From the NCBI GenBank assembly GCA_010692635.1, contig JAAHGL010000033.1, forward strand, positions 1-52,274: DNA of 52,274 bases, read 5' to 3'. Shown piece after piece: positions 48,852 to 52,274 of this stretch. Made by a program: the position numbers and the translations under genes. Positions within the stretch are counted from its first letter, which is position 1. Every line of letters starts with the position of its first letter. This DNA is from Symploca sp. SIO2C1. Its GTDB lineage: Bacteria; Cyanobacteriota; Cyanobacteriia; Cyanobacteriales; Coleofasciculaceae. The notes beneath the pieces are model-generated. The model did no database searches. It worked only from the letters and a program-made list of their open reading frames with translations, and had not been told where the DNA came from.

Positions 48852-49634
48852 TTACTGCTCAGAAGTGCAACAATCAACTAAAGGCTTATCGCTAATCTCC
48901 TCCAAACCAATCTGAGTCTGCTCCCACAATTCCACCCAATCCTCATCAAGTTCCTGAGCCTCCACATTACCCTCACGCAGTTCTGCCAGTGTCGTCAGGA
49001 AATCAAACCAAAGACCATTTTCTGCATAAATCTTCAGTCGTTCCCGCTTCGTTTTAAACTTTAATTGACTCTTAAGTTCAAAACTCATCGACACCCGTTC
49101 AAATCCACCCCAAACATAGTCATCATCTAACCGATTATCGGGATTACACATCATGAATAAGCGCCAAACATAAAGTCGTTCAACTTCTAGGGGTGATAAT
49201 GTTTCCGGCAGAGTAATTTTAATAATTCCTGGGGTATTGTTCAGGGCAACAATTTGTGAGTCAATCTTATTGCCTTCGTTATCTTCCAGCAAAAACTCTG
49301 CTTCTAGTTTGTAACTTTGATAAGGAACATAAAACCAAAATGTAGGACGTTCAGCAACCGTTAACCCAAAATTGGTCTCCGGGATCAAGGCAATAAGCTT
49401 TTCATTAGAGGAACAATAGCCTTCACGACTGCCTGCACCTCGACGCCTACCTGGTGTCCCTTTTGATGGTAATCTAAACTTGAGTGCCAGCTGGAATGGA
49501 GATTGATTGAGAGATATTGCTGAGGCAATTTTTGGTGTAATTAGGGCCTTGAGGATGCCCAAGCTACCCAATAGTAGGCTCGTCAATGTTAAGCCAAGAA
49601 TTATCGGTTTTGTTGGTGATTGTTTGTTGTTCAT
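48852..49634 (-). CDS. DUF928 domain protein
   Basis: 260 residues from ATG 49634 (a longer frame to 49667 lies in structured leader DNA). N-terminal hydrophobic signal or anchor (IILGLTLTSLLLGSLGILKA), then the DUF928 hallmark GTPGRRRGAGSR and KLIALIPETNFGLTVAERPTFWFYVPY. It ends with an all-beta central part and an acidic helical tail (EELWEQTQ-like). It is an exported protein of unknown function, widespread in cyanobacteria, often near CHAT or signalling genes. The Arg/Gly-rich stretch looks like repeat-derived sequence but is conserved in the family. Confidence 0.83.
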   Translation of the reverse strand: MNNKQSPTKPIILGLTLTSLLLGSLGILKALITPKIASAISLNQSPFQLALKFRLPSKGTPGRRRGAGSREGYCSSNEKLIALIPETNFGLTVAERPTFWFYVPYQSYKLEAEFLLEDNEGNKIDSQIVALNNTPGIIKITLPETLSPLEVERLYVWRLFMMCNPDNRLDDDYVWGGFERVSMSFELKSQLKFKTKRERLKIYAENGLWFDFLTTLAELREGNVEAQELDEDWVELWEQTQIGLEEISDKPLVDCCTSEQ

Positions 49635-49636
49635 AT

Positions 49637-49750
49637 CAATAAGTCTGACAGAACCGCGTCCCAACAACCGGGAAGTCTGGGTAACCTCGCCGACAGAAAT
49701 TCATTGAATATTCCGTTAACTGTTTGCGGCGAGTTCACCCAGACTTATTG
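49637..49750 (-). promoter_or_regulatory. Structured leader or small element upstream of the DUF928 gene
   Basis: CAATAAGTCTG (49637-49647) and CAGACTTATTG (49740-49750) are perfect 11-bp inverted repeats. Inside, AAGTCTGGGT-aac-CTCGCCG (49673-49692) pairs with CGGCGAG-ttc-ACCCAGACTT (49727-49746), 17 of 20 positions. The 114-bp structure begins two bases before the DUF928 start, so the right arm can pair with either of two left arms: an alternative-hairpin arrangement or a MITE. Confidence 0.6.
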
Positions 49751-49967
49751 AGAAGATAACCACTGTAAGGCTTTGGAGTTTCACACCGGGAACTAAGTTT
49801 CTGGCTGCCCTAATTTTCTCTCATCACAATGAATTAGCCCTGCCCATTCCCCATTCCCAAACGACAAATAGGTACACCATGAACAGCCGGAAACATTAAA
49901 ATTTGTTACTTTTGGAGGTTAACGGCTTTAACCTTAAAGCATAACCTAGACCTGCACAATTCCATTC

Positions 49968-51269
49968 ATGGACCTATTAGAGTACCAGGCAAAAGAATTA
50001 TTTCGTGAGATTGGTATTCCGGTTTTACCATCTCAAGGCATCAACCGTCCTGCAGATCTCAAGAGTTTACAGATTCCCTATCCGGTGGTGCTGAAGTCTC
50101 AAGTACCTACAGGGGGTAGAGGTAGAGCCGGAGGTATCCGATTTGTTGAGAATACCATTGATGCGATCGCAGCAGCTAGGGTGATTTTTAGCCTCTCGAT
50201 TTTAGGTAAGTATCCCCAAGTACTGCTAGCAGAATCTCGTTATGATGCAGACCAGGAATTTTATCTGGCAGTAATCCTTGACTATACTATTGGACGTCCA
50301 GTTCTGTTAGGTTCTACCCGAGGAGGTATCGGTATCGAGGTGCTGATAGAAGATCTACAAAAAGTTGTAGTTGAGGAAAATTTCTCTCCTTTCTATGCAC
50401 GGCGTTTAGCTGTTCAAATGGGACTCCAGGGTAACCTCATCGAGTCCGTTAGTGGGATTGTACAGAAGATGTACCAGCTATTTGTGCAAAAAGACCTAGA
50501 CTTAGTAGAAATTAATCCCCTCGGTATCAGTGCTACAGGAGAGGTGATGGCTTTGGATGGCAAAATTACAGTAAACAACAATGCTCTAGGACGCCATCCT
50601 GAATTAGCAACTTTACTTTCTACTACAGTCAACGGTAACCTTGAACCACAGTTACCCAAAAGTAAACTCACTGAAACAGAAGGTAACATTGGCATTCTCT
50701 GTAACAGCAGTTGTTTAGCGGCAACGACGTTGGATTTACTCTACCAAAAACAGGGAAAGCCAGCTAGTTGTTTGATTGTCGAGGAGGATGCTATTGGTAA
50801 CTTGCACTCAGCCTTTTCTGGAGAAGAACAACTAAAAATTGCTCTAGAAAAACTCACTCAAGCCCAGGGTATTAAAGTCATTTTAGTCAACATTTTGAGT
50901 AGTGCTGCCAAGAGTAAACAGGTAGCTGAAGTGATTGCCAATTATCTCCTTGCTCAACTTGAGGAAACTCCTGTGCTGAGTGTCGCCAACCGAAGGGAAA
51001 TAGCAGCGGGTGTTGCCTCAAGTTCCCGTCAACAGAGAACTCCTCTCAACACTACTGCTAAGCAGGAATTAGCATCTGTTAAGAGACGTTTCAGCAAAAG
51101 TTCTTTACCTCAGTTTGTCATCCGCCTCGTTGGAGGAGCAATTGACTCCAGCCAAGAGCTTTTAGCTGGGATGCCTGTATATTGGATGGATAACTTAGAT
51201 CAAGCAGTAGGGCAAGCTGTATCCTTAGCTCAGTCAACTGTCAAGAAGTCCAGACAAAAAAAAGGATGA
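49968..51269 (+). CDS. SucC-like ATP-grasp protein (succinyl-CoA synthetase beta homologue, divergent)
   Basis: 433 residues. The N-terminal ATP-grasp half is well kept: DLLEYQAKELFREIGIPVLP, KSQVPTGGRGRAGGIRFVE, YLAVILDYTIGRPVLLGST-like strand, LVEINPLGISATGEVMALDG with the metal-binding acidic and Asn residues. The C-terminal ligase domain is eroded: the family's DVGGGA becomes VEEDAIGN, and LVNIFGGI becomes LVNILSSAAKS. There is a 40-residue extension with a basic tail (KKSRQKKG). It pairs with a SucD homologue lacking its phosphohistidine. ATP binding is plausible; normal succinyl-CoA synthesis is doubtful. Confidence 0.8.
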   Translation: MDLLEYQAKELFREIGIPVLPSQGINRPADLKSLQIPYPVVLKSQVPTGGRGRAGGIRFVENTIDAIAAARVIFSLSILGKYPQVLLAESRYDADQEFYLAVILDYTIGRPVLLGSTRGGIGIEVLIEDLQKVVVEENFSPFYARRLAVQMGLQGNLIESVSGIVQKMYQLFVQKDLDLVEINPLGISATGEVMALDGKITVNNNALGRHPELATLLSTTVNGNLEPQLPKSKLTETEGNIGILCNSSCLAATTLDLLYQKQGKPASCLIVEEDAIGNLHSAFSGEEQLKIALEKLTQAQGIKVILVNILSSAAKSKQVAEVIANYLLAQLEETPVLSVANRREIAAGVASSSRQQRTPLNTTAKQELASVKRRFSKSSLPQFVIRLVGGAIDSSQELLAGMPVYWMDNLDQAVGQAVSLAQSTVKKSRQKKG

Positions 51270-51300
51270 GCAATAAAGGCTGCATTATCAAAATTCAAGG

Positions 51301-52218
51301 ATGAACTTAACACCAGACAGCAAAGTCCTAATACAGGGTATTACCCAACCACTAGGTTCATACTACGCAGCCCGCATGAAAGCTTATGGTACTAATGTTG
51401 TAGCTGGGGTAAGTGTCCGTAACGGGGGATACCAATTGCCTGAAATTCCTGTGTTTGACTTAGTAGAGCAAGCTTGTCAACATACAGGACCAGTGGATAC
51501 AACAATTATTTTTGTGGAACCATACAGAGCACTAGATGCTGCTTTAGAAGCAATAGATGCTGGTATACCACAAATTGTGCTCTTCACTGGCGGTATTCCA
51601 CCACTAGATGTGGTTCGTCTCATCCGGAAAGCAGAAGCGACGAAAACTCTCATCCTTGGCCCTGGTAGTTCTGGGATCATCATGCCGGGAAAAGTCTTGC
51701 TGGGTACTCACGAAAGTGAGTTTTATACCCCTGGATCTGTAGGATTAATAGCCCATGCTGGTATTCTTACCTATGAAGTAGCCCTTGCTCTTAGTCAAGC
51801 TGGACTGGGACAATCAATAGGGGTCAACCTTGGTAATGAGGCAATTGTTGGGTCTTCTTTTCGTCAATGGCTAGAAATTTTGGCTAGGGATGAGAGTACC
51901 CAAGCAATTGTTTTAGTGGATCAATCTGGCGGCAGTAGTGAGGAGGCAAGCGCTGAATTCATTGCCAATGTCATTGATAAACCAGTAATTACCTATTTCG
52001 CTGGCAACTATATACCTGTGGATAAGCAAATTGGCAATGCTGATTCTATTATTGCTGCTCAATTATCAGGGTCAGTGACTAAAACTACTACAGTTCAGCA
52101 CAAGGTTGCTGCTTTTAAGCAAGCCAGAGTACCAGTTGCCCAGAGTCCTTCGGAGATTCCCAAATTAGTAAAAAAGGCACTGAAAGGGGCCAGCTTTTTA
52201 ACCGATAATTTCTCTTAA
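51301..52218 (+). CDS. SucD-like CoA-binding protein lacking the phosphohistidine
   Basis: 305 residues, 31 bases after the SucC-like gene and surely cotranscribed. N-terminal CoA-binding Rossmann fold: VLIQGITQPLGSYYAARMKAYG, GGIPPLDVVRLI, ILGPGSSGIIMPG, then the ligase domain from SVGLIAHAGILTYEV. In E. coli SucD the catalytic sequence is MGHAGA with H246; here it reads IGNADS with N246. The partner glutamate of the phosphohistidine loop (E208) is Q208 in VLVDQSGGSSEEA, and the GPNCPG cysteine is serine (S123). These changes remove the phosphotransfer route, so the protein has either lost catalysis or taken another role. Confidence 0.82.
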   Translation: MNLTPDSKVLIQGITQPLGSYYAARMKAYGTNVVAGVSVRNGGYQLPEIPVFDLVEQACQHTGPVDTTIIFVEPYRALDAALEAIDAGIPQIVLFTGGIPPLDVVRLIRKAEATKTLILGPGSSGIIMPGKVLLGTHESEFYTPGSVGLIAHAGILTYEVALALSQAGLGQSIGVNLGNEAIVGSSFRQWLEILARDESTQAIVLVDQSGGSSEEASAEFIANVIDKPVITYFAGNYIPVDKQIGNADSIIAAQLSGSVTKTTTVQHKVAAFKQARVPVAQSPSEIPKLVKKALKGASFLTDNFS

Positions 52219-52274
52219 CCGAGCAGTATTGGGGGTGGGCTGAGATCTTGCACCATTCTCGATAACCCACCAGG

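Follow-up and report, generated by a model that had tools for sequence, protein, structure and literature searches.

The SucC-SucD pair of Symploca

The window, i.e., the whole stretch of 52,274 nucleotides from Symploca sp. SIO2C1 that was analysed, contains near its end two intact open reading frames on the same strand, separated by 31 nt. They encode a SucC-like beta subunit (49968..51269, +, 433 aa; ATP-grasp_2, E 1.4e-36) and a SucD-like alpha subunit (51301..52218, +, 305 aa; CoA_binding, E 2.7e-18). The beta-alpha gene order, both folds and the ATP-grasp nucleotide-site residues are those of the succinyl-CoA synthetase (SCS) SucCD, and the alpha subunit is 37% identical to E. coli SucD, but both proteins miss the NCBIfam cut-offs, with 209.8 bits for SucC against TIGR01016 (cut-off 375.55) and 244.4 bits for SucD against TIGR01019 (cut-off 353.2). 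A promoter and terminator scan of positions 49600-52274 gave no signal above shuffled sequence. The divergent neighbour of sucC in the window is a DUF928 protein (PF06051, E 2.6e-55; 48852-49667, -). No second SucD or SucC was found in the window genome (assembly 95.95% complete, 470 contigs), nor was the E1 component of 2-oxoglutarate dehydrogenase (2-OGDH), by a search that was positive in E. coli and six others. Within the same genus, the pair is missing from one genome (G002) and present in another (G001, 86-88% identical).

The AF2 models recover the two SCS folds. For SucD (pLDDT 85.4) the best match was 3ufx_A (TM 0.89/0.94), with low-confidence blocks (55 and 49) in the catalytic-loop region, residues 241-260. 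For SucC (pLDDT 79.9, pTM 0.56) it was 3ufx_E, with TM 0.51/0.59 and an rmsd of 12 A over the whole chain, a poor fit that we take as uncertain domain placement; fragments of the ATP-grasp domain matched at ~3 A, the highest TMt being 0.77.

Catalytic residues and CoA pocket of SucD

In alignments to the SucD of E. coli and of Thermus, N246 (codon 52036..52038, +) takes the place of the phosphohistidine (His246 in E. coli), Q208 (51922..51924, +) that of Glu208, its partner in SCS, and S123 (51667..51669, +) that of Cys123, just as the preliminary description had read them from the letters. All 37 comparison SucD sequences, drawn from Bacteroidota, Acidobacteriota and those genomes of the phylum that lie outside the class, carry H, E and C at these positions, so that chance is no explanation for the three replacements, and the presence of the same N, Q and S in G001 makes a sequencing error unlikely. 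Of the three residues listed there, the Ser is the weak point. S123 alone is no argument for inactivity, since Ser also occupies this position in 44 of the 67 His-bearing cyanobacterial rows and the structure of an E. coli C123S mutant has been solved (2nu7).

At the His column, the rows without His carry N, D, Q, E, P or T (D in 34 of 213 aligned rows). Another histidine placed in the active site by the alignment would have spoken against the loss, and no alpha column reached 90% His in any of the His-less groups; the closest come E. coli position 24, at 88% in Nostocaceae, and 261, at 61% in the family of the window, the latter being the best alpha column of this lineage. On the beta side, His226 is present in nearly all cyanobacterial rows, the His-bearing ones included. 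The SucC of Nostocaceae has fixed His at position 27 (98%) and at 291 (41/41 rows), within the former power helix, and the window SucC is without the latter.

The changes extend to the CoA pocket. G18, K43, P74, E98 and N123, which we assume from SCS structures to be residues of the CoA-binding site, are invariant or nearly so in the 37 canonical SucD and appear in the window as G18Q, K43N, P74E, E98G and N123G. More broadly, 33 alpha positions that are at least 90% conserved in canonical sequences fall below 60% in cyanobacteria, including T17, G18, G21, K43, P74, E98 and N123. Judging from the alignment, the pocket is eroded even in the cyanobacterial copies with His, which keep K43 in 3/33, G18 in 1/33 and N123 in 24/33.

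The two halves of SucC

The ATP-grasp domain of the window SucC (49968..50627, +; pLDDT 72-98 by blocks of ten) keeps K46, R54, E197, N199 and D213 (E. coli numbering), the last two being presumably the Mg ligands of SCS; Glu197 beta is the residue mutated in PDB 1jll (E197A). In the beta ligase domain (50679..51266, +) the glycine motifs, which include the power-helix glycines, have gone, GGG being EED at 290-292 and GGI being SSA at 320-322, so that the early reading of a beta subunit with intact ATP-grasp residues and no ligase-domain glycines holds. This domain matches PF00549 weakly (E 0.0021, 18.6 bits, below the cut-off of 24.5). It also contains a low-confidence stretch (residues 335-377, 50970..51098, +; pLDDT under 50) that falls in an insertion: the segment between E. 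coli beta positions 334 and 346, in the window mostly of pLDDT under 50, has 59 residues there versus 11-12 in 30 canonical rows and a median of 15 in 57 His-bearing cyanobacterial rows. Segments of at least 25 residues are found in 82 of 88 His-less rows versus 6 of the 57 with His.

The same division between halves is seen across cyanobacteria. Almost every row has K46, R54, E197 and N199. There are 56 SucC positions whose commonest residue is non-canonical and fixed in 85% or more of the cyanobacterial rows, and 53 of them lie in the ATP-grasp half. Canonical rows have mean identities of 0.51 for the ATP-grasp half and 0.56 for the ligase half, versus 0.77 and 0.47 for cyanobacteria with His, 0.74 and 0.58 for the family of the window, 0.82 and 0.60 for Nostocaceae and 0.65 and 0.31 for the remaining His-less rows; the absolute values vary with the spread of each set of rows, and it is the contrast between halves that is informative. 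It thus appears from these comparisons that the beta ATP-grasp half is conserved while the beta ligase half drifts. Nostocaceae show changes at the nucleotide site too, with D213 replaced by N in 41/41 rows and G53 mostly by E (30/41), and they have R at 290 in addition to the H at 291, in 41/41 rows.

Distribution and phylogeny of the His loss

Of 386 genomes searched across the phylum, 169 gave matches. In the window's class, 109 genomes carry a SucD-like gene with an E-value of at most 1e-30, and the residues were read in 106 of them (G079, G180 and G182 were left out); the remaining matches are to same-phylum genomes outside the class or are weak hits, many to frames of ~900 aa. By the order given in the search table, SucD is present in 100 of the 105 genomes of the window's order. 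Alignment of these homologues extends the loss far beyond the window: His is absent from SucD in 78 of the 106 cyanobacterial genomes, in one of them through a deletion, and kept in 28. The partner Glu (Glu209) accompanies it in 28/28 genomes with His and persists in 4/78 without. H, E and C are all in place at each of the 15 same-phylum loci read from outside the class.

At the His column, family f19, taken as Nostocaceae because the named Nostoc and Calothrix loci carry Q, has 36 Q, 1 E, 1 N and 1 T; f8 has 14 D and 2 N, f14 has 5 N and 1 P, and f2 has 10 H and 1 P. SucC adjoins SucD at 194 of 235 loci (some genomes being counted twice), the open-frame ends overlap at 10, and at 31 the piece that was fetched showed no SucC. 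The f14 SucD (L211-L216) have very long branches (stem 1.38), and no SucC was found within their 8-9 kb pieces. Three single-contig genomes of 2.8-3.1 Mb (G293, G209 and G174; loci L181, L183 and L184, 33-35% G+C) keep the His-less pair; diatom endosymbionts would fit. At one locus (L057, Microcoleus vaginatus HSN003) the SucD open frame is without its N-terminal part, perhaps through a frameshift.

Two model organisms can be connected to this series. Both qPCR primers given for the sucD (sll1557) of Synechocystis PCC 6803 in PMC4295605 flank the catalytic loop and match locus L186 with zero mismatches; its loop has the sequence KRHFGDSL, in which D occupies the His column, and the locus is a close orthologue of Synechocystis sll1557. 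The gene preceding it resembles by eye a type 2 isopentenyl-diphosphate isomerase, which fits the assignment of sll1556 to K01823 listed in PMC8385029. Genomes G087 and G111 are identical over 4000/4000 plasmid bases to Picosynechococcus PCC 7117 and PCC 7003 and have D for His and R for Glu; from its membership of this genus we infer that the SucD of PCC 7002 is His-less too.

In a tree of 115 SucD rows, thinned at 86% identity, with the catalytic columns masked and leaving out L112, which duplicates the E. coli row, and the fragment L222, the sequences of the class form a single clade (100, starred) on a long stem. The His-bearing copies (Microcoleus, Laspinema, Leptolyngbyaceae) fall in this clade and are orthologous to the window's, sharing much of the CoA-pocket erosion and the conserved ATP-grasp half, but they have His247 in 67/67 and Glu209 in 63/67 rows, and the long beta insertion is rarer among them. 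Nostocaceae group with His-bearing Chroococcidiopsis-type rows and the window's family with unicellular lineages. By parsimony the loss of His takes four changes, or five if the deletion row is counted; starred branches require at least three (115 rows). A single His-less clade was not rejected with SucD alone (AU p 0.056, 115 rows) and was rejected with SucD plus the beta ATP-grasp half (p 0.0026, 42 rows), the rows of the latter test having been chosen after the first tree was known and analysed under a simpler model. Overall, the trees make it probable that His disappeared more than once. The ties of His loss to the loss of Glu and to the beta insertion are strong by count, and they amount to three independent contrasts that are not significant on the tree.

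Selection

For SucD, dN/dS was obtained from 64 pairs with usable dS, regrouped so that the window pair counts once and the 8 H pairs from outside the class stand apart. The medians are 0.071 for Q (15 pairs), 0.091 for cyanobacterial H (25 pairs), 0.111 for D (7 pairs) and 0.196 for N (6 distinct pairs), with Moorena-type pairs at 0.20-0.32; the 8 outside-class pairs give 0.033, with dS partly near saturation. The window pair has 0.138 for alpha and 0.140 for beta. These values indicate that the His-less copies are under purifying selection. In Nostocaceae, the SucC ATP-grasp domain has 0.059 and the beta ligase half 0.208 (13 pairs), and the two SucD domains 0.071 and 0.068. Selection is therefore not specific to nucleotide binding, since the constraint on SucD, also in its ligase domain, is about equal to that on the beta ATP-grasp half.

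Known relatives and physiology

FdrA (PRK06091, PDB 3dmy), one long chain without an ATP-grasp subunit, shares the SCS-like CoA-ligase fold (E 1.3e-6), but the window's protein scores 36.7 bits against the PRK06091 cut-off of 433. According to PMC8550087, no SCS activity was detected for FdrA, which is called there an oxamate-producing enzyme. ADP-forming acetate-CoA ligase and citryl-CoA synthetase/ATP-citrate lyase belong to the common superfamily, and ADP-forming CoA synthetases are described as acting via a swinging-loop His (PMC11494057). In the window the latter residue is N246, and TIGR02717 gives 47.8 bits against a cut-off of 567.15.

Old work on Anabaena reportedly failed to find SCS activity in extracts. 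Cyanobacterial SucCD is treated as succinyl-CoA synthetase in papers on metabolism and the proteome (PMC7133116, PMC9175036 and PMC9855186), and the enzyme is called absent in another review (PMC11546870). In Synechocystis, sucD transcripts are reported to rise in early light (PMC4959675), sucC and sucD both to fall in nitrogen starvation (PMC4295605), and the SucC and SucD proteins to be detected (PMC9175036), which suggests that the pair is expressed. Succinyl-CoA was also measured in this organism, and a foreign 2-OG:ferredoxin oxidoreductase raised 2-oxoglutarate in it (both as given in PMC9855186), so that succinyl-CoA must have some source. For the sucCD deletion of PCC 7002, PMC5160925 reports succinate and malate at ~60% (light) and ~40% (dark) of the wild type, and that growth was not possible under the 2% CO2 sparging used for other strains; its authors read the low succinate as SCS activity.

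Putative function

Taken together, the pair is an SCS orthologue by descent that has, to judge from its residues and family scores, very probably ceased to act as SCS. There is good support for the loss of the SCS mechanism; what follows on a new function is inferred. Since the pair is kept under selection and its ATP site is largely intact, it probably has another, nucleotide-dependent job. This agrees, at the level of a probability, with the preliminary description, which had proposed an intact pair selected for something other than succinyl-CoA synthesis. Of the roles it had named, nucleotide sensing would fit the conserved beta ATP-grasp half; acyl-CoA sensing finds no support, as the five CoA-site residues are changed in the window and eroded in sister lineages.

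The pair combines the features of a pseudoenzyme, i.e., a lost catalytic residue, retained ligand-site residues and purifying selection. We therefore favour, tentatively and at somewhat less than an even chance, a regulatory or scaffold pseudoenzyme complex that binds ATP/ADP-Mg and into which the cyanobacterial SCS orthologue would have turned. With no phosphoryl acceptor and a changed CoA site, ATP, succinate and CoA would not react through a phosphohistidine; ATP/ADP-Mg would be bound at the beta ATP-grasp site and its state might be relayed by conformation or partner binding. The CoA site may have eroded first, in the common ancestor of the oxygenic cyanobacteria (organisms without 2-OGDH), and His would then have been lost together with its Glu, probably repeatedly. 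A more detailed version, which is possible but somewhat unlikely as a whole, is that SCS became a CoA-independent, ATP-driven or ATP-sensing regulator. It would have begun as a phosphohistidine switch without CoA ligation, persisting in the His-bearing lineages where His and Glu go together, and phosphorylation would later have been lost more than once with the nucleotide-binding core kept; in many lineages the regulator would be paired with a divergently transcribed membrane protein. The pseudoenzyme reading also draws on the kept folds, the retention of the gene in most of the window's order, the window genome's lack of a second copy and of 2-OGDH E1 in the searches made, and the phenotype of the sucCD deletion in PCC 7002, a member of a His-less genus. 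Against the pseudoenzyme stand the succinyl-CoA of Synechocystis, the drop of succinate in PCC 7002, the constraint on SucD, for which a new substrate would be an equally good reason, and the D213N of Nostocaceae, which, with the G53 change, weakens ATP-Mg binding as the common denominator.

The new-substrate reading of this constraint leads to an ATP-grasp ligase for another reaction, with a remodelled SucD pocket, another substrate and a product other than an acyl-CoA, in which a carboxylate would be phosphorylated directly, as is the mode of classical ATP-grasp enzymes, or another residue would take the phosphate. The retained K46, R54, E197 and N199, the 53 newly fixed ATP-grasp positions, the constraint throughout SucD and the precedent of FdrA all agree with it, but SucD has fixed no alternative acceptor, its His column varies among six residues and D213 is changed in Nostocaceae, and we regard this ligase as unlikely. 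Some weak or altered SCS-like activity might also persist without His, for instance with a loop Asp as acceptor or by direct acyl-phosphate formation. It would account for the PCC 7002 phenotype and the Synechocystis succinyl-CoA, and the D of 34 rows could accept phosphate; the N of the window and the Q of nearly all Nostocaceae, the loss of the partner Glu along with His and the altered CoA site make it quite unlikely.

That the genes are a decaying leftover, drifting toward loss in organisms with no need of SCS, is suggested by the higher dN/dS of the N lineages, the drifting beta ligase half and the absence of the pair from genomes such as G002. However, the SucD of Nostocaceae is no less constrained than the cyanobacterial His-bearing copies, the gene is found throughout nearly all of the window's order and the PCC 7002 deletion phenotype points the other way; drift is unsupported by dN/dS in most lineages, and this explanation seems very improbable to us. 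It is scarcely credible that His was misaligned or lost through sequencing error. The loop of the SucD model is of low confidence and a few rows are gapped near it, but the loop flanks align in most rows, G001 agrees and the sll1557 primers on either side match exactly a locus whose loop has D, so this candidate was rejected.

Most of the cyanobacterial copies read, model genera included, are thus without the residue on which the known SCS mechanism depends. As far as we have seen, this His-less variant is widespread in cyanobacteria, and in our searches of the open PubMed Central literature we recognised neither a description of it nor a report of the missing His in cyanobacterial SucD. The absence of the His reopens the question of where cyanobacterial succinyl-CoA comes from and gives reason to reinterpret the PCC 7002 sucCD phenotype. 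The His-bearing, His-less and Mg-ligand-changed copies form a natural series in which the turning of an enzyme into something else could be studied.

A divergent neighbour gene of sucC

At 45 of 135 loci the region upstream of sucC carries a gene of one family, always on the opposite strand (45/45; e.g., L166:6731-8833). Its full-length members have ~500-700 aa and four invariant Cys columns and, in the alignment inspected by eye, one hydrophobic span and a helical part. Against Pfam and NCBIfam they gave no clear match, the best being MIT (1.6e-4, 6 of 12 members) and ANR_neg_reg (6.2e-5, also 6 of 12). Among the 386 genomes, 86 have both the neighbour (at E 1e-40) and SucD, 23 have SucD only (5 of these with weaker hits to the neighbour family) and two have the neighbour only. 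The association is a lead rather than proof, the co-occurrence being confounded by phylogeny. In 47 of the 86 genomes with both, the two loci are adjacent; in Picosynechococcus and in the window genome (copy G000:C97:1-1710, L243) the family is found away from sucC.
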